Of a stretch of DNA of 64,000 nucleotides, positions 16,753 to 56,002 are shown in pieces. The DNA is from Lysobacterales bacterium. GTDB lineage: Bacteria; Pseudomonadota; Gammaproteobacteria; Xanthomonadales; Marinicellaceae. The stretch covers positions 1-64,000 of the forward strand of contig JAMOMK010000130.1 in NCBI GenBank assembly GCA_027067055.1, read 5' to 3'. Below the pieces are notes generated by a model that saw nothing but the letters and a program-made list of their open reading frames with translations, was not told where the DNA came from and did not search any database. The position numbers and the translations under genes were made by a program. Numbering within the stretch: the first letter of the stretch is position 1; the number at the start of each line of letters is the position of its first letter.

Positions 16753-16947
16753 TATTAATTTCTTTATTGGTAAGACATTTGACTATTCTAGAATGGCCAA
16801 TAAATATGTTAGACTAGTTAGAAAAGAAAGTTTGATTGGAAACAATTAATCTAAGAGTAATTTACTTGATTGAAGCAATTAAAAGATAAGTTGTAAAAGA
16901 TTAAAATGTTCGTATAATCATGAATGAACTAATATTTATCTCTTTCA

Positions 16948-17511
16948 ATGACATCTATAGAAAACATCACCCAACATATTATCGCTTATTCTGAAGGGGA
17001 TATCGTTGAGTTGGGTTTTATTGTTGATGCATTGTACAAAGAATTGTGCTTAGTTGCCCAGTCACAAATTAATAAACTAGGTTCAAGAGAAGTCTCGCCA
17101 CAAGAACTGGTGCACGAAGTCTATTTGAAGTTTTCAAAATCATTTACTATCAATGCCAATTGCCGCAGACATTTTTTAGCCATTGCTGCCAATGCTATGC
17201 GTTATTTAATTATTGACCAAATAAGAGCAGACAATAGTCAAAAACGAGGTGTGAATTTTTGTGCGACCACATTGTCTGATAGTAAACTTCCTATTTATGA
17301 TAATGCCAAAGAAATACTATATGTTCATGAAGGCATAGAAAAATTAAGGGGTATAGATGAAAAACTAGCCATTACGGTGGAATGTAAATATTTTGCAGGT
17401 TATTCTGAAATTGAAACAGCGCAAGCACTAAATGTCAATGTAAGGACTGTTAGACGTTACTGGAAACGTTCAAAAAAATGGTTGGCTATTGAATTTAGTC
17501 AAGACTTGTAG
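16948..17511 (+). CDS. ECF sigma factor of the kinase-associated (TIGR02999, ECF43-like) type
   Basis: The 187-aa protein has a sigma-2 region (residues about 25-95, with QELVHEVYLKF and AANAMRYLIIDQIRA) and a sigma-4 region (about 130-180, ECKYFAGYSEIETAQALNVNVRTVRRYWKRSK). The wording matches the TIGR02999 family. No anti-sigma gene is adjacent; instead a Ser/Thr kinase starts 19 nt downstream. In Vibrio the related pair EcfP-PknT works by kinase phosphorylation of the sigma factor, and I infer a similar mechanism. No strong ribosome-binding site is seen before the ATG, so the exact start is open. Confidence 0.85.
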   Translation: MTSIENITQHIIAYSEGDIVELGFIVDALYKELCLVAQSQINKLGSREVSPQELVHEVYLKFSKSFTINANCRRHFLAIAANAMRYLIIDQIRADNSQKRGVNFCATTLSDSKLPIYDNAKEILYVHEGIEKLRGIDEKLAITVECKYFAGYSEIETAQALNVNVRTVRRYWKRSKKWLAIEFSQDL

Positions 17512-17530
17512 GCAGTGTAAGAATCATAAT

Positions 17531-20500
17531 ATGTCAGATACCAAAGTTAACCAACTGCTAAAAAAAGCACTGTTTTTAGAAACGCATGAACGCACTGCCT
17601 TTTTAGAGCAGTTAGAAGAAGGTGAACTCAAACAAAAACTGACATTGCTTTTAAATGATGATATAGAACTAACACAATTTGTATTAAAAACATCATATGG
17701 CGCACAAGCTTTAGGCAAACACCAAATTAAAGACTTAAAACCAGGTGATAAGGTTAAGCAATTTACAATTATTAAGCTCATTGCTAAAGGAGGGATGGGT
17801 TCGGTATATTTGGCATACGATGAAAAGCTCAAGCGTAATGTGGCAATAAAAACCATTCGATCAGAGTACATTAAAAATAAAGCAACTCAACAACGATTCA
17901 AACAAGAAGCTCAAATACTATCACAAATTAATCACCCCTCTATTTGCCAAATATACGAATATATTGATTATGATGGTGGTGATATGTTAGTACTTGAATT
18001 GGTCGATGGCATTACATTAAGTAACATGGAATTATCTGACCATGAAAAATTAGAGGTGTTTATTCAAATAGCCTCGGCTTTAGAAGTAGCCCATAAAAAA
18101 GATGTTATCCATCGTGACTTAAAGCCCGATAATATCATGTGTGATAAAAACAATAAAATAAAAGTATTGGATTTTGGTATTGCAAAATCAACAGTTGTGA
18201 AATCACCTAAGTCAGTTATTCGTGAAGAAGAAATAAAGAATATCGACAAGCCATTAACCAAAATGGGAACTTTGATGGGAACATTGTTGTATATGAGTCC
18301 AGAACAAGCACAAGGAAAAGAAGTCACTAAAGCTAGTGATATTTATTCTCTTGGTATCATTATGCAAGAAATATTAACAGGTGTTGCAGTTTATGATTTA
18401 GCAAATGCTGAAGATTTAAAACAACAAGTTATTCAGGCAAAAAAAATTAATATAGGCTTCATTCCTAGAGTTTTTCAAAGTCTAATTGCATCATTAACTC
18501 ATAGAAACCCAAATAAAAGACTCTCTGCTCAAGAGTTAAAACAATCATTATTAGAAATAAAACAAGCACCACAATTAAAAAAACGAAAGTTAAGAAACTC
18601 CATGATTGCATTATCAGTAATAAGCTTAATTTTAATACTAGCGTATCAATGGTATGATTTTAATCACCAACAGAATAAAACCTTATTCATTAGTAGTATT
18701 AATAATGATGCATCTGAAATTATCTCTACATGGAAAAATATCTATACATTACCATTGCATAATATCAAAAACGATGTACAAAATTTATTGGATGTAAAAG
18801 AGGGTATATTCTTAAAAATTGACTCTTCAGATTTATTGACAATTGACGAAAAAAAATTACTTCAGGGTAGAGTCTACTGGAGCAATCGAGAGTATAAAAA
18901 AGCATTGCCTCTATTAGAAGGTGCTTGGAAATCTGGTATTAAAACTGTTAAATTAGCTAGAGAGCTGGCATTAAATAATCTTATGGTTTATTTTTTGGAA
19001 GCCAAAAAATTTGTGAATGAAAATGCCTATAAGGATGAAAAATATTTTAGTAAAATTGAAAATCTTTATATTAAGAGTGCAGAGAATTATATTAAATTTT
19101 TGGGGGGAGAATTTGAAGAATATTCTATAACAAATGCTTTAATGATGTGGTATAAAAAGGATGATCAGAAAGCAATAAATATACTTAAGCATATTACAGA
19201 AAATAAAAATTGGGATTTTGAAGCTTTTCAAATTCATGGTGAAATAATCGCAACAATTGGCATGAATCACCTTAGAAAAGGTAATATGGAAACAGGCAAT
19301 GAATATTTGCAAAAAGCAAAAAAAGTATATTACCAATCTAGTATAAGAGGAAGAAGTTTTGTAACTGCATATTTAAGAATATGTGATATGAGTTCAGCTC
19401 AATTACAAAAAACAGTTGATGTTTATGGCGATAAAGCCTCCGCGTTTTTTCAAGAAACCGTAAAAAATTGTGAATTTGCGGTTAATATTAATGACAATAA
19501 TAGAGCGATAAATACTTTAGCAGTAGCATATAATAGATATGGATTTTCATTAATTAAGAGAGGAGAAAATCCATTAGAATATTTGAATAAATCAATTAAA
19601 TATAGCAATGAAATCGATCAAAGTTTCCGTAAATATTTTATGATGGCAGTTTCCTTTACTTACAAAGGTTTATACAAAAACAATATTGGAGGCAACCCTT
19701 TAAGTGACTTTGATAAGGCAATAAAATATAACTTAAAATCAATTTCTTCGGCCAACAAAAAACTCGATATCAATTTTTCAAATATAATGTATATTCATTT
19801 AATGAAATTATGGTATGAATTTAATTTGGGAATAAGTCCCAATGATGGCATACAAGAAATATTGAATCTTAATGAGAAATCGATAAAATCCGCTTCCTCA
19901 GTGGTGGCACTAAATAATTCAGTTGTCTACCGAAACTCAATAATAGCAAATGCTTATTTAACAAAAGCCCAGTACCTAAATTTAAAAGATGAAGATCCAG
20001 TAGTAGTATTGGATTTCATCAAAGATAATTTTGCTAAAATTAAAAAAGTAACAGATGAGGATTTGATAATAGATAATGTATTGGTGGATACTTATAATGA
20101 GATTATTAGCTATAACCTCAAACACAGTAAAAGTTCATTAAATGAATTTAATCACGCACTCAGTTTAATCAATAACTGTATTGAAAAAACACCTAGCAAT
20201 GATAGTGTTATTACTTCAAAAGCTCAATTATTAATTAATCAACAACTTATAGTTAAAAGGGACAATAAAGACAGTGAATTAAATTTTGATTCTCCGCTTG
20301 AATTACTTAAGCGGGCAAACATCATTAACCCAAACTCAGATTCTACCCATACTCAAATTTCAGAACTTTATTATTTAATAGCAGAAAACTCATCATCTCA
20401 AGAGGAAATAAAGAAAGCATTGAATCTTGGCATAATTCAATCAGATACAGCTTTAACAATAAATCCAAACTTTCCTTTTGCATTTTCTTCAAAAGCAAAA

Positions 20501-20614
20501 TTAATAAAATTGGGTATAGACACAGGTATATTTTCCCAACATAGGCAACAAGAAGTTAATGAACTTTTCTTAAAGGCAAACAAGTTGAACCCGTTACTGA
20601 AAATTCCTAAATAA
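17531..20614 (+). CDS. Membrane Ser/Thr protein kinase with C-terminal TPR-like sensor region
   Basis: I start at ATG 17531 (MSDTKVNQ, 1027 aa); the open frame begins 14 codons earlier inside the sigma gene. The kinase domain spans about residues 78-350: glycine loop AKGGMGSVYLAYD, VAIKTI lysine, HRDLKPDN (Asp196), DFGIAKS (Asp214) and GTLLYMSPEQA, all catalytic residues intact. One membrane segment (about 357-376) follows, then about 640 residues of helical repeats resembling TPRs, probably periplasmic. It lies directly behind the ECF sigma gene and probably phosphorylates it. The repeat ligand is unknown. Confidence 0.9.
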   Translation: MSDTKVNQLLKKALFLETHERTAFLEQLEEGELKQKLTLLLNDDIELTQFVLKTSYGAQALGKHQIKDLKPGDKVKQFTIIKLIAKGGMGSVYLAYDEKLKRNVAIKTIRSEYIKNKATQQRFKQEAQILSQINHPSICQIYEYIDYDGGDMLVLELVDGITLSNMELSDHEKLEVFIQIASALEVAHKKDVIHRDLKPDNIMCDKNNKIKVLDFGIAKSTVVKSPKSVIREEEIKNIDKPLTKMGTLMGTLLYMSPEQAQGKEVTKASDIYSLGIIMQEILTGVAVYDLANAEDLKQQVIQAKKINIGFIPRVFQSLIASLTHRNPNKRLSAQELKQSLLEIKQAPQLKKRKLRNSMIALSVISLILILAYQWYDFNHQQNKTLFISSINNDASEIISTWKNIYTLPLHNIKNDVQNLLDVKEGIFLKIDSSDLLTIDEKKLLQGRVYWSNREYKKALPLLEGAWKSGIKTVKLARELALNNLMVYFLEAKKFVNENAYKDEKYFSKIENLYIKSAENYIKFLGGEFEEYSITNALMMWYKKDDQKAINILKHITENKNWDFEAFQIHGEIIATIGMNHLRKGNMETGNEYLQKAKKVYYQSSIRGRSFVTAYLRICDMSSAQLQKTVDVYGDKASAFFQETVKNCEFAVNINDNNRAINTLAVAYNRYGFSLIKRGENPLEYLNKSIKYSNEIDQSFRKYFMMAVSFTYKGLYKNNIGGNPLSDFDKAIKYNLKSISSANKKLDINFSNIMYIHLMKLWYEFNLGISPNDGIQEILNLNEKSIKSASSVVALNNSVVYRNSIIANAYLTKAQYLNLKDEDPVVVLDFIKDNFAKIKKVTDEDLIIDNVLVDTYNEIISYNLKHSKSSLNEFNHALSLINNCIEKTPSNDSVITSKAQLLINQQLIVKRDNKDSELNFDSPLELLKRANIINPNSDSTHTQISELYYLIAENSSSQEEIKKALNLGIIQSDTALTINPNFPFAFSSKAKLIKLGIDTGIFSQHRQQEVNELFLKANKLNPLLKIPK

Positions 20615-20708: not shown

Positions 20709-21326
20709 TTATTTGGAAACTTTATTCTTAATAGCAATTAAAATAGCCAATACAAAAAATGCGCCTGGTGGCAGTATCGCAATTAAAAACCCTTGGTAAT
20801 CGTCGAATATTTGCCATTGTATCTTATTACCAAAGTCACCAAAGAGTAAATGAGCTTGATTAAATAGGCTGCCGTTGCCGAGGATCTCGCGGATTGCTCC
20901 AATTATGACCAAAACAAGTGCAAAGCCTAACCCCGTGAAAAAGCCATCTTTAATGGCAAGCCATACGGAGTTTTTGGATGCAAAGCTTTCGGCGCGTGCC
21001 ATGATGATACAGTTGGTGACGATAAGTGGTATGAAAATACCAAGAATTAAATACAATTCGTGGAAGTAAGCATTCATAAACATTTCCAATGCTGTCACAA
21101 CACTAGCGATGATGAGTACGAAGAGCGAGATGCGAATTTCTTTGCTGATAATAGGTTTGATGGCAGAGACAAGTGCATTGGTTAGAGTTAAGGTAAATAC
21201 TGTGGCAATGGCAAGTCCCAAAGCGTTGACTACGGAGTTGGAAACTGCCAAAAGAGGACATAGCCCTAAAAGTTGCACCAATGCGGCATTGTCATCAATG
21301 ATGCGTTTACGTATAAATCCACTCAT
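20709..21326 (-). CDS. rnfE: Rnf complex subunit RnfE
   Basis: The 205-aa integral membrane protein shows NAALVQLLGLCPLLAVSNSVVNALGLA and six predicted membrane helices, the RnfE/RnsE pattern paralogous to RnfA. It is part of the ion-translocating ferredoxin:NAD+ oxidoreductase and contributes the conserved cysteine region that binds an iron-sulfur centre in the membrane. Its ATG overlaps the rnfG stop by 4 nt (ATGA). It is the last gene of the rnf operon and converges on the kinase gene. Confidence 0.95.
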   Translation of the reverse strand: MSGFIRKRIIDDNAALVQLLGLCPLLAVSNSVVNALGLAIATVFTLTLTNALVSAIKPIISKEIRISLFVLIIASVVTALEMFMNAYFHELYLILGIFIPLIVTNCIIMARAESFASKNSVWLAIKDGFFTGLGFALVLVIIGAIREILGNGSLFNQAHLLFGDFGNKIQWQIFDDYQGFLIAILPPGAFFVLAILIAIKNKVSK

Positions 21327-21937
21327 TCTATTTCTCCATTAGTTAGCTTGGTGTAGGATTTTTGAAAAAGTAATGCTTGCTTGATGGCGGCAACAACAGC
21401 TCTTGGAGTGATGGTTGCACCTGTAATTTGGTCAAATTGACCACCGTCACGTTTGACTTTCCAGTTTTTTTCGCGAATTTCTTTGAGTGAAAGTGTGGGA
21501 AATTGCTTGAGCCAATTACTTTTGTTGGCTTGAATTAAATCACCAAGTCCAGGTGTTTCGTGTTGTTCTAAAATTTTGACAGCAGTTATTTTACCATTGT
21601 TTTTTATGCCAACCATTAAGTCAATATCACCTGAATAACCATTGCGAGCGGTGACAGGTACTGCCAAAACGGTGGTTGTACCGTTTAATGTGCCGATGTA
21701 CAAGGCTTGTTCTTTGCGGTGCCCTAATAGTTTTGGACGGTTGATTAATGATGCGTCTTGAGTCAAATCGTTATCGTGTAATTCATCAGGAATCAAATCT
21801 TTTAAGCTTTCTAATAATAGTGTTTTCTTTTGCTCAGCGATTTTGTCACGTGTGGCATTTTCGCTAAATATAATTAAGCCACTAGTTAAGAATGTCACCA
21901 TGGCTAAAACCAGAGGGATTTTGATAAAGCTGCTCAC
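21323..21937 (-). CDS. rnfG: Rnf complex subunit RnfG (covalent-FMN protein)
   Basis: I start at GTG 21937 (SSFIKIPLVLAMV..., 204 aa, the usual length), with aagga a few bases upstream. The open frame continues 45 codons further upstream, but that part is translated from a dispersed repeat and is not protein-coding. One N-terminal membrane anchor is followed by a periplasmic FMN domain; the flavin-attachment motif TGATITPRAV near residue 180 carries the acceptor Thr. The protein passes electrons within the Rnf complex. ATGA coupling to rnfE. Confidence 0.94.
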   Translation of the reverse strand: MSSFIKIPLVLAMVTFLTSGLIIFSENATRDKIAEQKKTLLLESLKDLIPDELHDNDLTQDASLINRPKLLGHRKEQALYIGTLNGTTTVLAVPVTARNGYSGDIDLMVGIKNNGKITAVKILEQHETPGLGDLIQANKSNWLKQFPTLSLKEIREKNWKVKRDGGQFDQITGATITPRAVVAAIKQALLFQKSYTKLTNGEIE

Positions 21938-21956
21938 TAGTTTGTCCTTATAAGTG

Positions 21957-22028
21957 TTGTCATACTCGCGAAGACGGGTATCCAGAGTTTTAAATAGGAC
22001 TGGATTCTCGTTTTCACGGGGATGACAA
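21957..22028. repeat. Dispersed GTCAT...ATGAC repeat between rnfD and rnfG
   Basis: A 72-bp element ends in the perfect 7-bp inverted repeat ttgtcat / atgacaa. Inside, each end holds an imperfect hairpin of the type catactcgcgaagacgggtat and gattctcgttttcacggg, and the two ends face each other around tccagag...ctgga. Translated on the minus strand it gives the phrase CHPRENENPV...LDTRLREYD, typical of this widespread repeat class. It sits inside the rnf operon. Confidence 0.75.
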
Positions 22029-22052
22029 TAATAGAATTTAATGTGATTAATT

Positions 22053-23099
22053 TCATTTGTCTTTTTGTCCAAAAGCTTTGGGAATAGTCAAACGATCAAT
22101 CAACGGTGCTGACATGTTCATTATTAATATACCAAAAGCCACGCCATCTGGGAAGTTGCCAAATTCGCGGACTAAGATGGTCATTATGGCAACACCTGCA
22201 CCAAAGATGAGTTGTCCTTTGTGTGATGAACAACCAGAGGTTGGGTCGGTGGCAATAAAAAAAGCACCAAGCATCAACCCACCTGAAAAAATATGTTGTA
22301 ATGGTCCGATAAAATTATCAGGGTCAATTAAATAAAAGGGCAGAGAAAAAGCAATGGCTGTTAACAATACAGCGGCTGGTACACGCCAAGTAATAATCTT
22401 TTTATAAATTAAAAATAGTCCACCTAGGAAATACATGTTGGCAACCCATTCCCAACCCACTCCTCCAAAATTACCAAAGGCTATCCCTGTTGTGATTTCA
22501 CTCATCATACTGTCTTGCGAAATACCCGTTTTGATTAAATCCAATGGCGTTGCTTGAGTTAATGTGTCAAAATCAATGGTGCTAGGAAACTGATTAAAAA
22601 AGATGGCTTGCAGGTTTTCGACAAAACTCATGGCGTAAGGGCTAATAGAGTGGGGTGGTAACCACATACTCATTGCTTGTGGAAATGAAATCAAAACTAC
22701 GGCAAACCCCAGCATTGCTGGATTAAATATATTTTGCCCTAAACCACCAAATAAATGTTTGGCAACAACAATAGCAAAAAACATGCCGATAAAGCTAATC
22801 CACCATGGAGCAACGGGTGAAATACATAAGGCAAACAACAAGCCAGTAACAAAGGCAGAATAATCCTTGAGAAATAATTTTATTGATTTACCCAACAATT
22901 TCAAAGAGATAGCTTCAAAACATAAAGCAAAAATAACAGCTAAAGTTAATTGTATAATAATACCTGTGCCAAAAAAGAACACATGAGCAAGTATGGCAGG
23001 AGTAAGGGCAAGACCAAGGGTGAGCATGAGTTTAGCAACACTATTTTTTTTAGGTATATGTGGTGCACTTTGTGTGTTGAAGACTTTATTTTGAGTCAT
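22053..23099 (-). CDS. rnfD: Rnf complex subunit RnfD (membrane flavoprotein)
   Basis: I start at ATG 23099 (MTQNKVFN, 348 aa), overlapping the 3' end of rnfC by 14 nt; the longer open frame upstream is inside rnfC. About nine membrane helices are present. The covalent FMN site is in the segment TQATPLDLIK (acceptor Thr before PLD) near residue 180. The motif DPTSGCSSHKGQL near 280 is conserved in RnfD/NqrB. It forms part of the membrane ion channel. The gap to rnfG is 115 nt and contains a repeat, unlike the other tightly packed junctions. Confidence 0.95.
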   Translation of the reverse strand: MTQNKVFNTQSAPHIPKKNSVAKLMLTLGLALTPAILAHVFFFGTGIIIQLTLAVIFALCFEAISLKLLGKSIKLFLKDYSAFVTGLLFALCISPVAPWWISFIGMFFAIVVAKHLFGGLGQNIFNPAMLGFAVVLISFPQAMSMWLPPHSISPYAMSFVENLQAIFFNQFPSTIDFDTLTQATPLDLIKTGISQDSMMSEITTGIAFGNFGGVGWEWVANMYFLGGLFLIYKKIITWRVPAAVLLTAIAFSLPFYLIDPDNFIGPLQHIFSGGLMLGAFFIATDPTSGCSSHKGQLIFGAGVAIMTILVREFGNFPDGVAFGILIMNMSAPLIDRLTIPKAFGQKDK

Positions 23100-24663
23100 T
23101 TTTAGTCTCCAGTTTGGTGTCTTGTCTTGCGGCTTTAGCTTTTTGTATTCGTTCCATTGTGGCACTCAAGTCTTTTTGTATTTTGTCTGTATTAGTGGTT
23201 CTGCGTCTAGTTCGTTTACGTTTAGCAGCACGCTCGGCTTTTAAACGCTCCAATCGGGCTTCACGTTGTTCATGCCTGATTTGGGCTTGATCGGATTTTT
23301 CACGTTTGTAATCTAAGTATTTTAACTCGGATTTAGCATAACGGTAATAATCAACCAGTTTGATTTGACTTGGGCAAACCCACGCACAAGCGCCACATTC
23401 GATGCAATCGAACAAATGATGCTCGCGTGCTTTTTCAAGATTTTCACCTTTGATATACCAATGCAGCTGTTGTGGTAAAAGTCCCGCAGGACAAACGTTG
23501 ACACATTCCCCGCAACGAATACAAGGCAAGGCATCACCATAGTGCTGAGTGATATTTTTACTGAGTGCCAAGATGCAATTGGTAGTTTTATCAATGCCAG
23601 TGGAGCAATCAGGCATAGAGTACCCCATCATTGGTCCACCAATAATTAACCTATGAGTTTTGTCTTTATGAAACTGTGCATGTTGTAGCAAGTGACTCAT
23701 GGGTGTGCCAATCGCAGTAATAAAGTTTTGCGCCATACCGATACAATCACCAGCAACCGTAACAATTCGTTCAACCAAAGGGCGACCTTCGCTAATAAAA
23801 TCACTAAGTGCTTTAATAGTACCGACATTTTGTACGATAATGCCAAGGTTTAGGGGTAAACCACCGGAAGGAACTTCTCGCCCAGTTAATACTTTAATCA
23901 GTTGTTTTTCGCCACCAGCGGGATAAATAGTAGGAACTTTGGTGACAATAATATTATTTATTTTTCTTTGTTTTATATGTTTTTCAATAGCTGATTTAAT
24001 ATTACCCACTTGATCTTCTAATGCGAAAATGGCTTGACTAGCAGCAGATGCTTTCATCATTAATAAAATGCCACTAATCAAATCTTCAGGATAAGATAAC
24101 ATCAATTGTTCGTCACAAGTGATATACGGCTCACATTCTGCACCGTTGACGATTAAGGTATTAATTTTGGTATCATTTGATGTGTACTTTAAATGTGTTG
24201 GGAAACCAGCACCTCCAAGTCCAACAAGACCAGCATTATGTATGCTATCAATAATATCTTTAGCACTAACAGAGTCAATATATGCTTGATTTATTGGTTT
24301 TTTATTTAGCAAGACCCATTGTTCTTTGCCATCAGTAGTGATTTCAATAACTGTAGAAATATCAGCCTCAGGACTGGCAGTCGCACGTTGCATGATAGCG
24401 GTGATTTCACCTGATGTAGATGCATGAATATATGAGCCGTTGGTAGTATCTGGTTTGGCAATTATTTGTCCTTTTAAGACTTTATCACCGACTTTAACTA
24501 GTGCTTTGGCAATATTGCCACGATTAATACGTAAGGAAATGTAAACTTTGTCGGCAATTGGTAAGTGTGACAAGCCATTTTGTAAAGAGTCATTTTTATG
24601 GTGTGGAAGTTTAATGCCACCTTGTAATTTGTATAGTTGTTGTGAATTGATAGAGCTTACCAT
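23086..24663 (-). CDS. rnfC: Rnf complex subunit RnfC
   Basis: The 525-aa soluble subunit carries a glycine-rich nucleotide/FMN-binding part ([15 protein letters not shown] near 145) and two 4Fe-4S motifs, [12 protein letters not shown] near 380 and [12 protein letters not shown] near 420. It is the NAD(H)-facing module of the complex. The C-terminus is a charged, lysine/arginine-rich tail (about 455-525), shorter than the long alanine-rich tails of enterobacterial RnfC. It overlaps rnfB by 7 nt and rnfD by 14 nt. Confidence 0.96.
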
Positions 24664-25229
24664 TGTTGTGCCTGCTCAATGGTTGAATAAAGTGCCGGTT
24701 TGTCAATACGCTGAACAAACTTTGGCAGTGGAGCTTCAATGGTAATAATGCAATCAACAGGACAGGCAGGAATGCAGAGGTCACAGCCAGTACAGGCATC
24801 AATAATTATCGTGTGCATGTGTTTGGCAGCACCAACAATGGCATCAACTGGACAAACTTGAATACATTTTGTGCAACCAATACAGTCTTTTTCGATGATT
24901 TCTACCACCATATCAATTTCTTTGGCTTCGCCATTATCTGGATTCAGCTCTATTACTTCTACATCTAATAGTTCTGCTAATTTTTTAACCCCTTCTTCTC
25001 CCCCTGGAGGGCATTGGTTTATTTGTGCCTCACCACTTGCTATGGCTTGAGCATAAGGTTTGCAACCTGGATAAGTGCATTGTCCACATTGAGTTTGTGG
25101 TAATATCGCATTGATTTGTTCGACAATGGGGTTGCCTTCGACCTTGAATTTTTTCGATACCCACATGACTATCAGCCCAAAGACCAACGACACAAATGAG
25201 ATAATGATTAAACTAACAAAAGGATTCAT
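24657..25229 (-). CDS. rnfB: Rnf complex subunit RnfB (iron-sulfur protein)
   Basis: The 190-aa subunit has an N-terminal membrane anchor, then the RnfB-specific cluster [16 protein letters not shown] (near 48-62) with its fourth Cys in NQCPPGG, and two ferredoxin-type motifs, [12 protein letters not shown] and [12 protein letters not shown]. It is the entry point for electrons from ferredoxin. Its start adjoins the rnfA stop directly. Confidence 0.97.
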
Positions 25230-25808
25230 TTAACGTACCATTCCACCAAAGCCCATAAACGCAATCGACATAATGCCAGCAGTAACTAGAGCAATAGGTG
25301 TGCCTTTAAATGATTCTGGAATATCAGCCATCTCAATACGTTCGCGAACAGCTGAGAATAAAACCAATACCAAGGTGAAGCCAATAGATGCACCAAAGCC
25401 GAATACGGCTGATTCGATTAAATTATTTTGTTCTTGAATATTTAGCAATGCGACACCTAAAACTGCACAGTTGGTCGTAATCAATGGCAAGAAAATACCT
25501 AAAACCTGATAGAGTAAAGGTGAGGTTTTATGTAAAATCATTTCGGTGACTTGTACAGTTACTGCAATAACTAAGATAAAACTCAAAGTTTTGAGGTATT
25601 CGAGCCCAAGAGGAACTAATAAATAAGTGTGGATGAAATAACTTAAGATGGATGATAAAGTCAATACAAAGGTCGTTGCTAAACCCATCCCAAGAGCCGA
25701 TTGGTATTTGCTAGAAACGCCCATGAATGGACACAAACCCAAAAACTTCACCAATACGAAGTTATTGATGAATACCGCACTAATAAAGATAAAAAATAAC
25801 CCACTCAT
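25230..25808 (-). CDS. rnfA: Rnf complex subunit RnfA
   Basis: I start at ATG 25808 ([10 protein letters not shown], 192 aa), which matches the family length; the open frame extends 23 codons further without family similarity. Six membrane helices and the motif [18 protein letters not shown] at the N-terminus identify RnfA, the partner of RnfE in the membrane iron-sulfur core. It is the first gene of the rnfABCDGE operon. Confidence 0.96.
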
Positions 25809-25846
25809 AAATTGATATTTAATAAATTGACCGCATATTTTAACGA

Positions 25847-25862
25847 CTATTGAAAACAATAG
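25847..25862. promoter_or_regulatory. Palindrome between divergent rnfA and truncated haemoglobin gene
   Basis: A perfect inverted repeat, ctattg / caatag around aaaa, lies centrally in the 84-bp divergent gap. It could be an operator for either direction. No known consensus is matched, so the role is open. Confidence 0.3.
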
Positions 25863-25892
25863 TATAACATTAGTCAAATATTGAGAATATAA

Positions 25893-46929: not shown

Positions 46930-48948
46930 ATGAGTGTTACATCAAATGATTTAGGCGGACAAGCTAGAACTTTGCCAACGTGGCAAGTTTTTATCTTGTT
47001 GTTACTTATTATAGGGTTCGTAGTCAACTCTATTGCATTAAGCACAATTGAATCAAATAAGGTACAACATGTACAAGCAGCTGATGATATTCAAATTAAA
47101 GCACAGCAATTGGCTCAACATGCTATTTCATCCGCGTCTGGAGAAGAGGATTCGTTTAAGAAACTTAAATTCACTCGAGATTATATATCCAAAAAAATTG
47201 ACTCATTAGTCAATGGTAATTCAGATTATCCATCTGTTCCAGTAGAGGTTAATGACTCGTTAGATGTTGTAGAAACCACCTGGAAAGCAATGAACTCTAA
47301 TGTAGGAAAGATATTAGATAAACAGGAATTGATTAAGGATATGTCCTCGATTTATAATAAATTTGCATCTCAAATCCCTGAGCTACAAACAAAAAATGAT
47401 AAAGTGGTTAAACTATTGGTTAAGATTAATGGTTCTAGAGAAATAATCCGTTTAGCAGGTCAACAACAAGTATTGGCGGATAGAATGTTAAGACGTATGG
47501 GTGAAGTGCTAAAAGGAGGAATGAATGCTGTCCAGGAATCAGAAGCTTTAAAGGATGACACAAATCGATTTTCAAAAGTGTTGAATGGAATGTTTAATGG
47601 TGATGGAAATATAAAAGCTGTAGCAAATAAAAGTGTGATTGAAGCACTTGGCTCTGTGTATAATGTTTTCAATGGCTTGCAAGCTGATGTCAACGAAGTA
47701 ATGAAAGCTCAAGATTTATTTGAAGCACAAACTGCAACAGATGATATAGTATTTGATACACCATTATTTGTTGATCAAACCAAAGAGTTGTCGACTCATT
47801 TAAAAGAAATCAAAACGACCCTGCCATCTGCAAATGCACAGTACATACTAGGTGGGTTAGCTCTATTATGGCTAATATTTATATTGTTCTCATTGACTAA
47901 AAGTGATAGAAAAAGAGCTACAGAAGCACAAGATTTGAATGAAAGAAATCAGTTGGCTATTTTAAGATTGCTGGATGAAATGGGTTCATTGGCTGATGGT
48001 GATTTAACGGTAAATGCAACAGTGAGTGAGGATATTACAGGAGCTATTGCGGATTCTGTTAACTTTGCTGTTGAGGCTTTAAGAAGTTTGGTAAAAACAA
48101 TTAATGATGCATCGGTTGGCGTGGCATCTGCTGCCCAAGAAGCGCAAGCAACAGCTTTACACTTGGCCGAAGCCTCAGAACATCAAGCACACCAAATTAC
48201 CAATGCATCGGCCGCAATTAATGAAATTGCTGTATCAATTGATGAAGTATCGATTAACTCGTTAGAGTCCGCAGATGTGGCGCAACGTTCAGTACTAATT
48301 GCACATAATGGTGCGGAAATTGTACGCCAAACTATTGAGGGTATGGATAATATTCGCAATCAGATTCAAGAGACTTCTAAACGTATTAAGCGATTGGGTG
48401 AAAGCTCACAGGAAATTGGTAACATAGTTGAATTGATTAATGATATTTCTGAACAAACAAACATTTTAGCACTAAATGCAGCCATTCAAGCTGCATCAGC
48501 TGGTGAAGCTGGACGTGGTTTTGCCGTGGTTGCCGATGAAGTACAATCACTTGCTGAACGTGCGTCAAATGCAACGAAACAAATTGAAACACTAGTACAA
48601 ACCATTCAGTCAGATACTAACGAAGCGGTATCCTCAATGGAACAAACGACAGCAGAGGTAGTGGATGGTGCTAAACGTGCAGAAAATGCGGGTGATGCAT
48701 TGACTGAAATTGAAGCGGTATCAAACGATTTGGCTGAATTGATTCAGAATATATCAGAATCTGCAAAACAACAGTCCGTAGCTGCAACAAATATTTCAGG
48801 AACCATGAACGTGATTCAAGAAATTACGACTCAAACCTCTGTTGGTACTCAGCAAACTGCAGAATCTATTGGGAATTTAGTGGAGCTTGCAAATGAATTA
48901 CGCTTGTCAGTACAAGATTTCAAGTTGCCAACTGATGAATTTAATTAA
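46930..48948 (+). CDS. pilJ: Methyl-accepting chemotaxis protein PilJ
   Basis: The 672-aa receptor has two membrane segments (about 17-40 and 305-325) enclosing a helical periplasmic domain with the PilJ-type motif [17 protein letters not shown], a HAMP-like linker, and the signalling tip [20 protein letters not shown] with [19 protein letters not shown]. It is likely to sense pilin or surface contact and transmit through PilI to ChpA. Glutamine/glutamate methylation sites lie on both flanks of the tip, served by PilK and ChpB. Confidence 0.93.
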
Positions 48949-48953
48949 TTAAA

Positions 48954-49811
48954 GTGAAAAATTATTCAAATGAAGGGTTGATTTTTTTGCCCGATTTTAA
49001 ATTGTTCGATTATGAAGAGTGGTCACAATTACTAGAAAAAAGAGTTGGAATAACTATTCCGAAAGAAAGAGAACTTTTTTTGCAAACAAAAATTTGGTCT
49101 AGGATGCGAGAACTTGGAATTTCATCATTTTCAGAATACTGGCAAATGGTTAAAAATGGTATTACAGGAAATTTAGAATGGAGCGAATTGTTAGATAGAT
49201 TGACAGTTCATGAAACCAGTTTTTTTAGGCACGGACCTTCTTTTAAATTGGTTGAGAATGATTTTAACAATATTCTTGAGAATAAAGCTAAGTTTCATTA
49301 CAAAGTATGGAGTGTTAGTTGTTCTACAGGAGAGGAGCCGTATTCCTTAGCTATGATGTTACATCAATTAAAAATTAAGGCAGAAAAGAATAATGTTTAT
49401 TACGGAATTACTGCAACTGATGTGAGTAAGCCAGCATTGATGCAAGCTGAAAATTGTTTCTACAGTAAAGAAAAAGTAAAAGAAATAGATTTGAATTATA
49501 GAAAATATTTGACGAGTGTTAATTCAAATATTTTTACAATTGATGAGACTATAAAAGATCGAGTAGCGTTTGGCGTATTTAATTTGTTGAAAATTGAAAA
49601 AATGCCAACTATTAAGTTTGATATTATATTTTGTCATAACGTATTAATATATTTTTCAAAAGGAAAAAAAATAAAAATTTTAGAAGGGTTGAAAAGGTTT
49701 TTGAAAAAAGGGGGATTGCTTGTTTTAAACCCAACTGATATAGGTAGTTGGAAAAGCCAAGGCATGACGCGAATAACATATAAGAGAACTTTAGCATATA
49801 AATTGGATTAG
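48954..49811 (+). CDS. pilK: CheR-type methyltransferase PilK
   Basis: The 285-aa protein starts at GTG 48954. It shows the CheR pattern: N-terminal helical domain, then LTVHETSFFRHGPSF, VWSVSCSTGEEPYSLAMML (SAM site), ITATDVSKPALMQA and FDIIFCHNVLIYFS. It methylates receptor glutamates, presumably on PilJ. Five nt separate it from pilJ and eight from chpA. Confidence 0.93.
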   Translation: MKNYSNEGLIFLPDFKLFDYEEWSQLLEKRVGITIPKERELFLQTKIWSRMRELGISSFSEYWQMVKNGITGNLEWSELLDRLTVHETSFFRHGPSFKLVENDFNNILENKAKFHYKVWSVSCSTGEEPYSLAMMLHQLKIKAEKNNVYYGITATDVSKPALMQAENCFYSKEKVKEIDLNYRKYLTSVNSNIFTIDETIKDRVAFGVFNLLKIEKMPTIKFDIIFCHNVLIYFSKGKKIKILEGLKRFLKKGGLLVLNPTDIGSWKSQGMTRITYKRTLAYKLD

Positions 49812-49819
49812 ATAAAAGT

Positions 49820-52800
49820 ATGAGTGAAATAGAACAAATAGATTTCTCAACATTAATTTGGGTAAAAAAAGAGCTTGATGAAACCTTGAGTAAGGCACAG
49901 TCAGCAATTGAAGCCTATGTGGAGAATCCAGAAGATGAAAATCAATTGCAGTTTTGTGCTACCTATCTACATCAAGTACAAGGTACTCTTAAAATGGTGG
50001 AACTCTATGGTGCAGCAATGGTTGCCGAAGAAATGGAACAAGTTGCTACCAAGATACTAGATAAAGAAGTTGATTCAGAAAAGGATGCTTTTGAGGTGTT
50101 AACAAGAGGCATTTTATTGCTACCAGATTATCTAGAAAGAATACAACTAGGGCATAAAGATATACCAATGGTGTTACTGCCGTTGGTTAATGATTTGAGA
50201 ACAGTAAAAGGTGATCAGCTACTATCAGAAAGCGCCTTGTTTAACCCGAATTTAAGTTTAGGAATTCCTGAGTCAAGCTTCAACTCTAGCTTTATTCTAA
50301 GTGAAAACCAGTTAACTCAAGTCGTTAACAAAATAAGGAGCGTTTATCAGCTTAGTTTATTAAACTGGTTGAAAGGGAATGATGTAGATGCTAATTTAAA
50401 GAAGATTCAAATTATCATAGATAAGCTAAAAACTGTTGTTCTTGAGCAGGATGAAAAACAAATGTTTTGGGTGGCAGGAGGTTTGTTTGAAGCTTTAATT
50501 AATGGAAGTTTGGACAGGTCTGTCACAGTTAAACAGCTTGCAGCAAGGTTAGATCAAGCAATTAGAATGATAGTTTCAAATGATAATGCTTTAAATGATA
50601 GACCCTATAAAAAAATCACCAAAAACCTTTTATATTATGTTGCTTTAGCTCAAAGTAATGATAGACGAATTAAAGAAATCCAAAAGTTTTTTAATTTATC
50701 CGACTTTATTTCTGATGAAACAGAGATTGCACATGCGAAAACAAGTTTGTCTGGAAAAAATAAAGAGCTTTTAGAATCAGTTACAACTGTCATTAAAGAA
50801 GATTTAATGACAGTGCAAGAGAGTTTGGATTTGTATAATCGTAAAGAAAATGCTGATGTTTCTGATATGAGGATAATACTGGAATCATTGAATAAAATAT
50901 CAGATACACTTGGAATTATAGGTGTGGGGATTGCACGTTCACGAATAAAAAAGGTGATAGAAAGTGTAGAGAAAGAGATTGAAGAATCTGAAAACGTAAA
51001 TAAAGACTCTCTGATGGAAATTGCTGAGACAGTTCTTTTTGTGAATTTAGCTTTAGATGAAAATATTCTTTCTCTTGGTGAAATTAGTGATATTGATGTG
51101 GATTCTGAGTCAAATATTGCATCTTCAGAAATTCGTAAAATTAAAGATATTTTAGCACAGGAGTCAATAAATTCATTACAGAAGGTTAAGCAGAACTTTA
51201 TTCAATACATTGAGTCTTCGTGGGATCAAAAGCACTTAGAATCATCTCCAAAACTGCTCAAACAAATAAGTGGTGCTTTAAAAATGTCTGGTTTTCTTGA
51301 GGTTGCTGACGAAATTGAGAAAATTGAAGAGTACACTTCAAATCACATGCTAGAGAAAAATTATGTTCCTGATGTAGAAAAGTTAGATGTTTTAGCTGAG
51401 GCTATCGCAAGTTTAGAATATTATTTGGAATATTTAAGTGAAGGAACACGAGGGGAAATAAGTATATTAGAACTGGCACAATCCAATATTAAGAAATTAT
51501 TTGATTCAAAAATTCAAGAAGATAAAAATGATATTCTTAAAGACCCAGTAGATCAACTTGATGATGACGATAATAGTATTAACCAGTATGAGAAAACTAC
51601 AGAAGATATTCAATTAACAGAAGAAATTGAGAAAGAATCATCAGCCATTTCATTAGTGGCAGAAAATGAGTTGAGTTCAGAAGACGAATTAAATTCAGAG
51701 CTTGATGGTATTAATGAGATGGAGTTTGATGAGTCTCTAGATAATGAAATTATTAATGAGCATGAGTTTACACAAAGTGTTGAGAGATTAGTTGTCGCTT
51801 TTAGTGAAGACACTGATGATGACATAAAAGAAGTGTTTTTAGAAGAGTTTGAAGAAGAGGTTGAACACCTTAATGACATCTATCCCCGATGGAAAAACAA
51901 TCCAGAAGAACAATTTGAACTGTTGGGTGAAATACGCCGTATCTATCATACATTAAAAGGTAGCGGAAGATTGGTTGGAGCTATGGCAATTGGTGATTTC
52001 AGTTGGAAGATTGAAGACATGACTAATCAGGTCTTAAATAAAACACGAGATGGATCCGCATCCTATTTATTGGTTATGGATGCATCACAGAACATATTGC
52101 CAAGTTTATATCAAGCATTAAAAGATGAAGCAGAAGTTCCTCCTGGTTATTATGCTATTTTGAAAGCAGCAGAATCGGTTATAGACGGAAATACTATTAC
52201 CGAAATAATAATAGATGAAGACGACGTAGGTTTGGATGCTAAACCTCTTGAAAAGAAAGATGATTCGATTGTAGCTCAAGATTTTGACAGTATCGAGTTG
52301 AAAAATGAAGGTTTAAATGACTTGCCAATCGATAAAGCTGATGATGTCATGATTTCAAATGAAGACTTATTAGACTTTGATGATGAGTTGTCAAGTTTAG
52401 ACGATGACTTTATGGATGAGTCAGATTTATCTGTAGACCCCGTGTTTGTTGAAATATTGCAACAAGAGGTAGAAGGTCATTTAAATGATATTGGAGAATA
52501 TTTAGATAATTCAAAAAAATCTGGCAATTATTCACCAACAGATAAATTTATAAGAATTGTACACACCTTGAATGGAGCAGCCAATATGGCATCCGTTAAT
52601 AGCATTGTGTCTATGACAACCCCATTAGAATTGTTTGCAAAGTCAGTTTTAGATACTAAAAAAGTGTTTGACGAAAAAAGTATTCAACAAATAGAAATGT
52701 TTAAAAGTGAATCTGAAAAGATTATGAAAGATTTGTCTCATTTATCCACCCCTACTGATGAGATTAATAAAATCGGTTCATTCTTTAAAAATGCGAACAT

Positions 52801-55800
52801 TGAAATAAATCAAGAAATAAATGTATCGGATGATGAATTAACAGACTTTGATTTGAAACAGTTCATTGATGAATCAGATGATGAGTTAAGTAATGAAGAG
52901 TTAATGAGTCAGTTTGATGATTTAGAATCTGAAATTAATGATGTTAAGGATTGGTCTGAGGACAGATCTGCTCTTGATGACTCATTGAGTGGAGATGAAG
53001 ATTTAACTCTAGAAATTGATGACTTTAATTTAGGAGAAGAAATTTCTCTTGAAATCGAAGAATTAGGTTTAGTTGAAGAATTAGATCATTCTTCAGAAGA
53101 ATTAATTCTTGAAATTGAAGAACTAGAGTATAGCAATTCAGAAGAAGGCTTAGAAGCAGAATCAGAAGATGATTTAGAAGATGACTTAGAAGAAGAGTCA
53201 GAAGATGACTTAGAAGCTGATTTAGAAGAAGATTTAGAAGATGATTTAGAAGAAGAATCAGAAGAAGACTTAGAAGAAGATTTAGAAGCTGGTTTAGAAG
53301 AAGACTTAGAAGAAGACTTAGAAGATGATTTAGAAGATGATTTAGAAGATGATTTAGAAGCTGATTTAGAAGAAGGATCAGAAAAAGGTTTAGAAGAAGA
53401 CTTAGAAGCTGATTTAGAAGAAGAATCAGAAGAAGGTTTAGAAGAAGACTTAGAAGAAGACTTAGAAGAAGATTTAGAAGCTGATTTAGAAGAAGACTTA
53501 GAAGCAGAATCAGAAGATGACTTAGAAGAAGACTTAGAAGCAGAATCAGAAGCCGACTTAGAAACTGATTTAGAAGACGAGTCATTAGAATTAACTAAAC
53601 AAGATCATATTTCAGCTAGTGTACCGACTAGTTATAATTCTCAATCAGAGTCTTCAGAACAAGAGTCTTCAGAAGAGTTTGACGAAGAGCTATTAGAGAT
53701 ATTCCAAGAAGAAGCAGATGACATATTGGATAGAACAGAGCATGTTTTATCAGATTTAGAAGAGGATCCGAATAATTTATCGTTAATTGAAGCATTACAA
53801 CGAGACTTACATACCTTGAAAGGTGGGTCAAGGATGGCAGGCCTGTATAATATTGGCGAATTAAGCCATGTTTTAGAATCACTGCTTGAAAAAATAGGAG
53901 AAGATAAACATGAGGTTGATGGAAAAACATTTGGTATTATTCACGACTCTTTTGATACGTTAAATAAGTTAAAAAATGAAAGTGATTTTGGACAGTCATC
54001 TGATATATCTACAAGCGTTACGAATGTTAAATCTCTATTAGGGTTAAGCGATAATATAGTCCCAGAAAAGTCCAAATTAGATATAGATGAATTTGACTCT
54101 GTTAATCCAATGCAGGTGATAACAGATGAAGAGGTGGATATTGATGAAGCGACAGTTAATGTGCCATCGAAAAAATCTAATGTATTATCAGGCAATCAGA
54201 TAAAAGTAAATTCTGAATTATTAGATAATTTAGTGAATTATGCAGGTGAAGTGAGTATTTACCGTTCACGACTAGAGCAAGAAGTTGGCTCCTTTAGGAT
54301 TAACTTAACAGAGCTGGGTAATACTGTTGCACGTATTAGGGAGCAACTAAGAAAATTAGATGTAGAAACTGAAGCACAGATTATTTCAACCTTCCAGATT
54401 GAAGAAACTGGAGAAGGGTTCGATCCTTTGGAAATGGATAGATTTTCACAATTGCAACAACTATCACGATCATTAACTGAGTCTGTATCAGATTTGACGA
54501 GCATTCATAGTTATCTAGATGATGTTGCTCGTAAATCTGACAATCTCTTAACTCAACAATCTCGAGTGAATGCTGAGTTACAAGATGGTTTAATGGAAAC
54601 GCGATTAGTTTCTTTTAATTCAATCGTTCCTCGTTTAAGAAGATTAGTCAGAACAACATCTAAAGAATTGAAAAAGTCAGTGAAATTAGATGTGCATGGA
54701 GCTGAAGGTGAAATGGATAAGACCGTCCTTGAAGGAGTAATAGCTCCTCTTGAGCACATGATAAGGAATGCTCTTGCACATGGTATTGAATCAAATCGTA
54801 AGAAAGCTAAAAAAGCTGATGCTGGTCATATTTCATTGGATTTAAGACGAGAAGCAACAGAGGTTGTTATTACGGTAATAGATGATGGTGCCGGTATTGA
54901 TCGCGAGAAAGTAAAACAAATTGCTATAGAAAAAGGCATAATTGAAAAGGATAAACAAATATCTGATAATGAAATTGATAGACTTATACTTCATAGTGGA
55001 TTCTCAACAGTTGACAAAGTTTCCAAAATTGCAGGACGTGGTGTAGGAATGGATGTCGTTGTTAATCAAATAAATCTATTAGGCGGAAGTTTAGATATTA
55101 GTTCGGATTTAGGTAAAGGGACGAAGTTCATCATACGATTGCCTTATACCTTAGCTCTTTCTAATGCATTGTTAGTTGAAGTTTCTGAACAAGTTTATGC
55201 AATACCAATATCTGGATTAGAAGGCGTGATACGTATGTCTTATTCAGATTATTTGCAAAGACAGAAAGATGACAATATGGTTTATAATTATGCTAATGAA
55301 GAATACCAAATATATGAATTGAATAATTTATTAAATATTGATTCTGAGGTCATAGTTGAAAACAATCAAATACCACTTGTTATGATTAGATCTGGAGAGG
55401 ATGGTGTTGCTTTAAGGGTTGATAATGTCTTAGGCTCTCGTGAAATAGTTGTGAAAAATGTTGGTGCTCAAATTTCTAGTGTTCCAGGTATATACGGAGC
55501 AACAATATTAGGAGATGGAAATGTAATCCTGATATTAGATGTGATTCCACTCTCTAGAAGTTATGTTAAGAAACTTAAAGACATTGAAGAAAGTGGTTAT
55601 GTTGCTGAAGAAATTGAAGTAACAAGAGACCCTATAATAATGATTGTAGATGATTCTATTACGATGAGAAAAGTTGGGGAAAGAATTTTACGTAGAAATG
55701 ATTATGATGTAGTAACTGCAAAAGATGGTATAGATGCACTTGATCAGCTTAAAGAAGTTGTTCCTGATGTAATGTTGTTAGATATTGAAATGCCAAGAAT

Positions 55801-56002
55801 GGACGGTTATGAGTTAGCAATTGAAATGAAGAAAATAGAATCTTATGCTAATGTCCCAATTATTATGATTACTTCAAGAACAGGTGAAAAACATAGACAA
55901 AAAGCAATGGATCTTGGAGTCAATAGGTATTTAGGCAAGCCATATCAAGAGGCTGATTTATTAGAAAATATAAGTGAACTAATTGAAGAATTTAAAAACT
56001 AA
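49820..56002 (+). CDS. chpA: ChpA hybrid histidine kinase with multiple Hpt domains
   Basis: The 2060-aa protein is the kinase hub of the Pil-Chp system. Hpt-type modules with the His in place are at His51 (HQVQGTLKMVE), His710 (HTLKGSGRLVG), His915 (HTLNGAANMAS) and His1331 (HTLKGGSRMAG). A further module near 480 (KQISGALKMSG) has Lys481 where His would be. The dimer and ATP-binding domains (LEHMIRNALAHGIE, DDGAGIDREK, GRGVGMDVV) span about 1480-1790, then a CheW-like part and a receiver domain with Asp near 1987 (DVMLLDIEMPRMDGY). An acidic tetrapeptide-repeat linker of 148 residues (1107-1254) separates two Hpt modules. Confidence 0.95.
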   Translation: MSEIEQIDFSTLIWVKKELDETLSKAQSAIEAYVENPEDENQLQFCATYLHQVQGTLKMVELYGAAMVAEEMEQVATKILDKEVDSEKDAFEVLTRGILLLPDYLERIQLGHKDIPMVLLPLVNDLRTVKGDQLLSESALFNPNLSLGIPESSFNSSFILSENQLTQVVNKIRSVYQLSLLNWLKGNDVDANLKKIQIIIDKLKTVVLEQDEKQMFWVAGGLFEALINGSLDRSVTVKQLAARLDQAIRMIVSNDNALNDRPYKKITKNLLYYVALAQSNDRRIKEIQKFFNLSDFISDETEIAHAKTSLSGKNKELLESVTTVIKEDLMTVQESLDLYNRKENADVSDMRIILESLNKISDTLGIIGVGIARSRIKKVIESVEKEIEESENVNKDSLMEIAETVLFVNLALDENILSLGEISDIDVDSESNIASSEIRKIKDILAQESINSLQKVKQNFIQYIESSWDQKHLESSPKLLKQISGALKMSGFLEVADEIEKIEEYTSNHMLEKNYVPDVEKLDVLAEAIASLEYYLEYLSEGTRGEISILELAQSNIKKLFDSKIQEDKNDILKDPVDQLDDDDNSINQYEKTTEDIQLTEEIEKESSAISLVAENELSSEDELNSELDGINEMEFDESLDNEIINEHEFTQSVERLVVAFSEDTDDDIKEVFLEEFEEEVEHLNDIYPRWKNNPEEQFELLGEIRRIYHTLKGSGRLVGAMAIGDFSWKIEDMTNQVLNKTRDGSASYLLVMDASQNILPSLYQALKDEAEVPPGYYAILKAAESVIDGNTITEIIIDEDDVGLDAKPLEKKDDSIVAQDFDSIELKNEGLNDLPIDKADDVMISNEDLLDFDDELSSLDDDFMDESDLSVDPVFVEILQQEVEGHLNDIGEYLDNSKKSGNYSPTDKFIRIVHTLNGAANMASVNSIVSMTTPLELFAKSVLDTKKVFDEKSIQQIEMFKSESEKIMKDLSHLSTPTDEINKIGSFFKNANIEINQEINVSDDELTDFDLKQFIDESDDELSNEELMSQFDDLESEINDVKDWSEDRSALDDSLSGDEDLTLEIDDFNLGEEISLEIEELGLVEELDHSSEELILEIEELEYSNSEEGLEAESEDDLEDDLEEESEDDLEADLEEDLEDDLEEESEEDLEEDLEAGLEEDLEEDLEDDLEDDLEDDLEADLEEGSEKGLEEDLEADLEEESEEGLEEDLEEDLEEDLEADLEEDLEAESEDDLEEDLEAESEADLETDLEDESLELTKQDHISASVPTSYNSQSESSEQESSEEFDEELLEIFQEEADDILDRTEHVLSDLEEDPNNLSLIEALQRDLHTLKGGSRMAGLYNIGELSHVLESLLEKIGEDKHEVDGKTFGIIHDSFDTLNKLKNESDFGQSSDISTSVTNVKSLLGLSDNIVPEKSKLDIDEFDSVNPMQVITDEEVDIDEATVNVPSKKSNVLSGNQIKVNSELLDNLVNYAGEVSIYRSRLEQEVGSFRINLTELGNTVARIREQLRKLDVETEAQIISTFQIEETGEGFDPLEMDRFSQLQQLSRSLTESVSDLTSIHSYLDDVARKSDNLLTQQSRVNAELQDGLMETRLVSFNSIVPRLRRLVRTTSKELKKSVKLDVHGAEGEMDKTVLEGVIAPLEHMIRNALAHGIESNRKKAKKADAGHISLDLRREATEVVITVIDDGAGIDREKVKQIAIEKGIIEKDKQISDNEIDRLILHSGFSTVDKVSKIAGRGVGMDVVVNQINLLGGSLDISSDLGKGTKFIIRLPYTLALSNALLVEVSEQVYAIPISGLEGVIRMSYSDYLQRQKDDNMVYNYANEEYQIYELNNLLNIDSEVIVENNQIPLVMIRSGEDGVALRVDNVLGSREIVVKNVGAQISSVPGIYGATILGDGNVILILDVIPLSRSYVKKLKDIEESGYVAEEIEVTRDPIIMIVDDSITMRKVGERILRRNDYDVVTAKDGIDALDQLKEVVPDVMLLDIEMPRMDGYELAIEMKKIESYANVPIIMITSRTGEKHRQKAMDLGVNRYLGKPYQEADLLENISELIEEFKN
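53138..53581 (+). repeat. 37-unit, 12-bp coding minisatellite in chpA
   Basis: The 444 bp divide exactly into 37 units of 12 bp, each reading (tta or tca) gaa NNN NNN and encoding (L/S)E(D/E/A)(D/E). Units such as LEED, LEDD, LEAD, LEEE and SEDD recur in irregular order. All units stay in phase, so gain or loss of units would not shift the frame. Leucine repeats seen in the minus-strand frame of this segment are a by-product. Confidence 0.9.

Follow-up and report, generated by a model that had tools for sequence, protein, structure and literature searches.

An ECF43-like sigma factor of the Marinicellaceae without the usual sigma-2.2 acceptor threonine, paired with a kinase whose outer domain is exchanged between close relatives

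Introduction

The closest described counterparts of the locus analyzed here are two ECF sigma factors that are paired with a kinase. EcfP of Vibrio parahaemolyticus works with the kinase PknT and without an anti-sigma factor, and its single switch is the threonine of an STTA motif that contains no acidic residues (PMC8999054 and PMC13147305). EcfK of Xanthomonas citri is an ECF43 sigma factor encoded beside PknS, a membrane-bound Hanks kinase with periplasmic TPRs, and it controls a T6SS (PMC13147305). Both sigma factors are phosphorylated on a threonine in sigma region 2.2 that is kept in 88% of ECF43 members, and EcfK has a further phosphosite, T106, in the linker, at a position that is Ser, Thr, Asp, or Glu in 76.9% (PMC13147305). 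A T51A variant of EcfK works while a T51A/T106A variant does not, and its QATE motif keeps a Glu beside T51 (PMC13147305).

The pair studied here lies in a stretch of 64,000 nucleotides from a marine Lysobacterales bacterium of the GTDB family Marinicellaceae (contig JAMOMK010000130.1, positions 1 to 64,000), called the window below. In the part of the PMC literature that was searched, we found no report on a clade of such sigma factors without the sigma-2.2 threonine or on exchange of the sensor.

Results

An earlier, sequence-only reading of the window had described an ECF sigma gene and a membrane kinase gene 19 nt apart, had seen no anti-sigma gene, and had likened the pair to EcfP and PknT. 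Open reading frame coordinates confirm the two genes and the 19-nt gap between the sigma stop and the kinase ATG (Table 1). No anti-sigma gene was recognized adjoining the pair, whose neighbors encode an M16 peptidase upstream and, downstream and convergent, RnfE. The sigma factor consists of sigma2 and sigma4 only; its PF07638 (Sigma70_ECF) match of 94.9 bits (E 7e-27) exceeds the gathering score, and on TIGR02999 of the same family it reaches 122.2 bits, just below that model's cut-off of 126.15. With a Ser/Thr kinase adjacent and no anti-sigma gene, the pair belongs to the known kinase-partnered kind of sigma factor represented by EcfP/PknT and EcfK/PknS. The kinship proposed earlier fits, as does the proposed direction, with a kinase acting on sigma and no anti-sigma factor; the proposed phosphosite fared differently (below). 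The source genome holds seven such sigma genes, and a kinase lies directly behind five of the six paralogues and before the sixth.

Table 1. Features of the sigma/kinase locus, in window coordinates
Feature	Position	Strand	Basis or remark
Sigma-70-like promoter, TTGTAA-16 nt-TATAAT	16891..16918	+	Read from sequence 5' of the sigma gene
ECF sigma gene, ECF43-like	16948..17511	+	187 aa; ATG 16948, stop 17511
Gln52 at the EcfP/EcfK acceptor Thr site, with its fixed acidic neighbor Glu53	17101..17106	+	Alignment
Thr107-Thr108-Leu109, sigma2-sigma4 linker, proposed phospho-switch	17266..17274	+	Clade alignment
Membrane Ser/Thr kinase gene	17531..20614	+	1027 aa; ATG 17531, stop 20614
Hanks-type kinase domain, residues 79-339	17765..18547	+	PF00069 Pkinase, E 9e-49
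Exchanged cassette, kinase C-lobe end to just behind the stop codon	18431..20706	+	Breakpoints approximate, taken from the break in the G006/G007 DNA match
Single membrane helix, about residues 354-372	18590..18646	+	Hydropathy scan
Outer domain of allele type A, a TPR-like solenoid of helical repeats (654 aa)	18650..20611	+	AlphaFold2, Foldseek

In the promoter upstream of the sigma gene, GTATAAT is kept in all four aligned rows (the window and the three nearest orthologues), while the DNA 5' of it is too diverged among orthologues for comparison. This conserved element resembles a sigma-70 promoter, which suggests housekeeping expression of the sigma gene and leaves autoregulation unsupported. 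A plasmid origin of the locus was also considered and dropped, with no match among plasmids. The Rnf electron-transport operon (window 20709-25877) runs convergent with the kinase gene, and the exchanged cassette described below has one of its borders at the end of this operon. Elsewhere, window 46930-55999 carries a type IV pilus-type chemosensory cluster with a PilJ-like receptor, CheR, and a 2060-aa Hpt/CheA/receiver fusion.

An unlinked anti-sigma factor or other partner might nevertheless hold the sigma factor, with the kinase phosphorylating that partner, much as SigH and SigE of Mycobacterium tuberculosis are released via PknB phosphorylation of their anti-sigma factors (PMC8999054). 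We regard such an arrangement as very unlikely, given that no anti-sigma gene was recognized by eye beside the clade sigma loci inspected and that zf-HC2, one anti-sigma family, has no match anywhere in the genome.

Orthologues of the sigma factor, 48-85% identical to it, were found in 15 of 32 other genomes of the same GTDB family searched, a clear gap from the paralogues at 37% or less. A wider contig scan gave 14 loci of the clade in named records, all from Marinicella or gammaproteobacterial MAGs; the next-best relatives beyond the clade, from Acidobacteriota and others, were 38% identical. Among the sequences searched, the clade thus appears only in the Marinicellaceae. The comparisons below use a family set of 52 loci, a subset of the family matches (36 non-clade and 16 clade rows, one of the latter cut short), and a wide set of 66 non-clade and 14 clade rows from the wider scan.

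At the site of the EcfP/EcfK acceptor threonine, the window has Gln52. The alignment of sigma region 2.2 is not in doubt, because a nearly invariant L-V motif follows the site at a distance of two residues (SPQE-LVHE in the window). Thr occupies this site in 1 of 15 readable clade rows (G020, SATE) compared with 36 of 36 other family-level relatives, the clade being one lineage whose counts are therefore not independent. Elsewhere in the clade the residue is Gln (4), Asn (4; G003, G004, G009, and G013), Ala (3), or His (3), and the residue after it is Glu or Asp in all 15 readable rows. The wide set gave the same contrast, with Thr at the site in 60/66 non-clade and 1/14 clade rows and an acid directly after it in 11/66 versus 14/14, from a scan by peptide patterns of which one favors an acid before LVHE. 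G020 sits inside the clade on the sigma tree, and at least two changes at the site must therefore have occurred; its retention of Thr counts against a switch that has relocated. The earlier reading had suggested a search for threonine phosphosites in sigma region 2, and the EcfP/EcfK threonine is precisely what is absent from 14 of the 15 readable clade sequences.

Could an EcfP-like switch have moved to a neighboring residue, with Ser50, or Ser at 51 in relatives, replacing the lost threonine? Of 14 readable clade rows, nine do have Ser or Thr at position 50 and five have Ser at 51, but these positions drift, neither is conserved, and the G017 orthologue (L062) reads MGAE with no Ser or Thr at 50-52. 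As the adjoining acid is in addition always present, we consider a neighboring switch quite unlikely.

The linker between sigma2 and sigma4 offers another candidate. All 16 clade rows have Thr107 and Thr108, and Leu109 is likewise invariant in the rows displayed, while most other linker columns vary; across a 13-row alignment, only columns 8, 107, 108, and 167 are Ser or Thr in every row. Outside the clade, column 107 is Ser or Thr in 1/66 rows of the wide set (2%), and column 108 is Thr in 33/66 and Ser in 12/66; in family paralogues, where the linker alignment is unsure, Thr is found at 107 in 6/36 and at 108 in 12/36. Being Ser, Thr, Asp, or Glu in 79% of the wide set, column 108 is by share the best counterpart of EcfK T106, in a register inferred without the EcfK sequence, and T108 would then supply the residue expected there; plain spacing from EcfK T51 would instead favor T107. 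With the acceptor threonine missing, looking for phosphosites in region 2 alone would probably miss the switch, for which T108 or T107 is the stronger candidate. Column 110 is acidic in 0/15 clade rows, 49/66 rows of the wide set, and 4/36 family paralogues, again in an unsure linker alignment; as these paralogues also do without that acid, we do not claim that the linker traded a fixed acid for Thr.

Eleven of the 16 clade genomes encode a kinase next to the sigma gene or in its vicinity. The kinase lies behind sigma in the same direction in eight (G000, G005, G006, G007, G013, G017, G025, and, at 1.3 kb, G023), before it in one (G020), and convergent in two (G012 and G016). No kinase was found in the flanks examined of four others (G003, G004, G022, and G029), and the G009 contig breaks off 74 nt after sigma. 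G003 and G004 encode a cNMP-binding/EAL protein directly behind sigma (1-nt gap read in G004; L039 4215-5408; L040), in the kinase's usual place. Both this substitution and the four flanks without a kinase count against a kinase-switched sigma factor.

These arrangements, together with the two convergent ones and the drift from Thr to Gln, Asn, Ala, or His in region 2.2, would fit a sigma factor that is competent unphosphorylated, the acid at 53 restoring core binding, beside a kinase that has other substrates or a loose tie to sigma. The linkage in 11 genomes speaks against it, and the Thr-Thr-Leu is invariant even in clade genomes where the kinase is unlinked. Moreover, kinases at other loci of G003, G004, and G009 group (97/97) with the linked kinases of G000, G005, G006, G007, and G013, and their tree follows the same order as the sigma tree, which points to coinheritance. 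The cases of G022, whose nearest kinase (46%) is cut by a contig end, and G029, whose kinase (40%) is from another kinase group, are weaker. Phyletic match of sigma and kinase is itself a weak test, since type-A kinases (defined below) occur also in genomes without the clade sigma factor, in several cases next to glyoxylate-shunt-like genes; G008 carries part of an outer domain where a contig ends. On this evidence we find a phosphorylation-free sigma factor somewhat unlikely, and prefer one that is switched by its kinase.

Several observations concern the surroundings of these genes. Sigma and kinase are convergent in M. pacifica and M. gelatinilytica, and the related G029 has the same neighborhood without the kinase (L064 3669-6176; L065; L066). 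The culturable Marinicella litoralis carries the pair in linked form (L101). A second kinase group, 43-46% identical to the window kinase domain and with no sigma gene adjoining, occurs in several family genomes (L079, L090-L094), where its neighbors resemble glyoxylate-shunt genes. Large secreted proteins with a recurring TYQGEL motif and beta-helix-like repeats adjoin several sigma/kinase loci (L099 1213-4684; L074 4110-7500; L005, L006, L007) and could be outputs of the regulons.

The kinase, read earlier as having intact catalytic residues, has its catalytic Lys, HRD Asp, and DFG Asp, with HRDLKPDN, DFG, and SPE intact; the first Gly of the P-loop is replaced by Ala (IAKGGMG). The single membrane helix proposed before corresponds to the one hydrophobic stretch, and the KKRKLR run that precedes it should, by the positive-inside rule, place the N-terminal kinase in the cytoplasm. 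Beyond it, the sequence-only reading had counted about 640 helical-repeat residues and suggested structure prediction; about 650 were found, and an AlphaFold2 model built from 6 sequences has 28 helices and no strands (pLDDT 86.1, pTM 0.77). The best Foldseek matches in the PDB are TPR superhelices (TTC7B at 2.6e-8, O-GlcNAc transferase, and others), with TM-scores of only about 0.2-0.5. The earlier label of TPR-bearing thus suits the predicted fold, but no Pfam TPR model reaches its cut-off on the window outer domain (best TPR-like match E 0.006). Relatives with the other outer-domain type, B, do match Pfam TPR (TPR_12, 1.9e-30 and 4.7e-37).

Comparison of close relatives showed this domain to change as a unit. 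The DNA of G006 and G007 is 95.5% identical along 1627 nt that run from sigma into the kinase gene, and 97% identical along 2007 nt behind that gene. Between these stretches, starting near kinase residue 300 and reaching to the stop, the same kinase domain carries unrelated outer domains: type A in G006 (1034-aa frame) and type B in G007 (854-aa frame). The window itself matches G007 up to 18432 and again from 20706 onward. Type B is present also in G005, 33% identical to that of G007, and its relatives were found in separate kinases of G003, G004, and G020. The window and G006 have type A in common, at 86% amino-acid identity (versus 79%, which makes it the better-conserved half). Its synonymous difference (pS) of 0.35 compares with 0.73 for sigma, 0.67 for kinase residues 1-300, 0.45 for residues 301-345, and 0.65 (rnfE), 0.59 (rnfG), 0.62 (rnfD), 0.75 (rnfC), 0.49 (rnfB), and 0.49 (rnfA), and a value below those of the flanking genes is what one would predict if the cassette had moved once the lineages had diverged.

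All four kinase-bearing ECF43-like loci shared by G006 and G007 diverge beyond the membrane segment, two being matched on both sides and two on one side only (contig ends or changed flanks), whereas none of four other kinases does (Fisher two-sided p 0.029); these controls, without such a sigma factor, were the kinases that could be paired, and one (402 aa) is too short for a large outer domain. One shared sigma factor without a recognized kinase is collinear. Between G003 and G004, exchange was seen at 0 of 2 readable loci, the other pairs being cut by contig ends, and of five kinase pairs between the window genome and G006, two have kept the outer domain (the window kinase and L070/L188) and three have had it replaced.

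Because G006 and G007 are metagenome-assembled and strains may have been mixed, swapped outer domains could in principle be assembly chimeras. That would require two joins per locus at domain borders with frames intact (loci 1 and 2), and it would leave unexplained the independent type B of a third genome, G005, the lowered pS of the type A common to the window and G006, and the collinearity of all four control kinases; we hold it to be most unlikely. The comparisons, made in genomes that are mostly MAGs, instead indicate a cassette-like exchange of the outer domain between close relatives. The domain's earlier description as poorly conserved is right between genera, where four of the five relatives aligned share 16-21% identity with it, and understates this exchange.

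Discussion

We propose that the sigma factor is made constitutively but idle and that the cotranscribed membrane kinase would switch it on by direct phosphorylation. In this clade, the acidic residue at 53 may provide some of the contact that sigma 2.2 makes with RNA polymerase beta-prime; the usual threonine would thereby have become dispensable and been lost, leaving control to T108 (or T107) in the linker, much as with T106 in EcfK. A periplasmic TPR-like solenoid would gate the kinase as a replaceable cassette, and lineages could change the input by recombination while kinase domain and sigma factor stay. Phosphorylation, its site, activation rather than inhibition, and sensing are the parts we infer; we give this account of a linker-switched, EcfK-type sigma factor under a kinase with an exchangeable sensor about an even chance of being right as a whole.

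The likeness to EcfK/PknS goes beyond gene order, as EcfK also has an acid beside its sigma-2.2 site and a phosphosite in the linker. Given that EcfK T51A is functional and that Glu adjoins T51 in the EcfK motif, the clade resembles a natural T51A state. Unlike EcfK, which keeps T51 as a second site, the window sigma factor has lost it, and the outer domain of its kinase is larger, gives a weak TPR signal, and is exchanged between relatives (PMC13147305). EcfP differs in the switch itself: SPQE has one acid and no Thr, whereas EcfP depends on the threonine of an acid-free motif (PMC8999054, PMC13147305). More tentatively, and with rather less confidence than in the account above, the sigma-2.2 acid may have freed the acceptor threonine and left the Thr-Thr-Leu as sole switch, with the sensor becoming a hypervariable, recombining cassette that rewires the regulon to new inputs between near-identical species.

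The Marinicellaceae lineage is a case in which evolution removed the sigma-2.2 threonine, and it makes directly testable the open question of whether that threonine is essential in kinase-controlled sigma factors or whether a linker site is enough. Cassette exchange, in turn, provides natural chimeras, with the same kinase and sigma factor behind different outer domains, for finding what these kinases sense.
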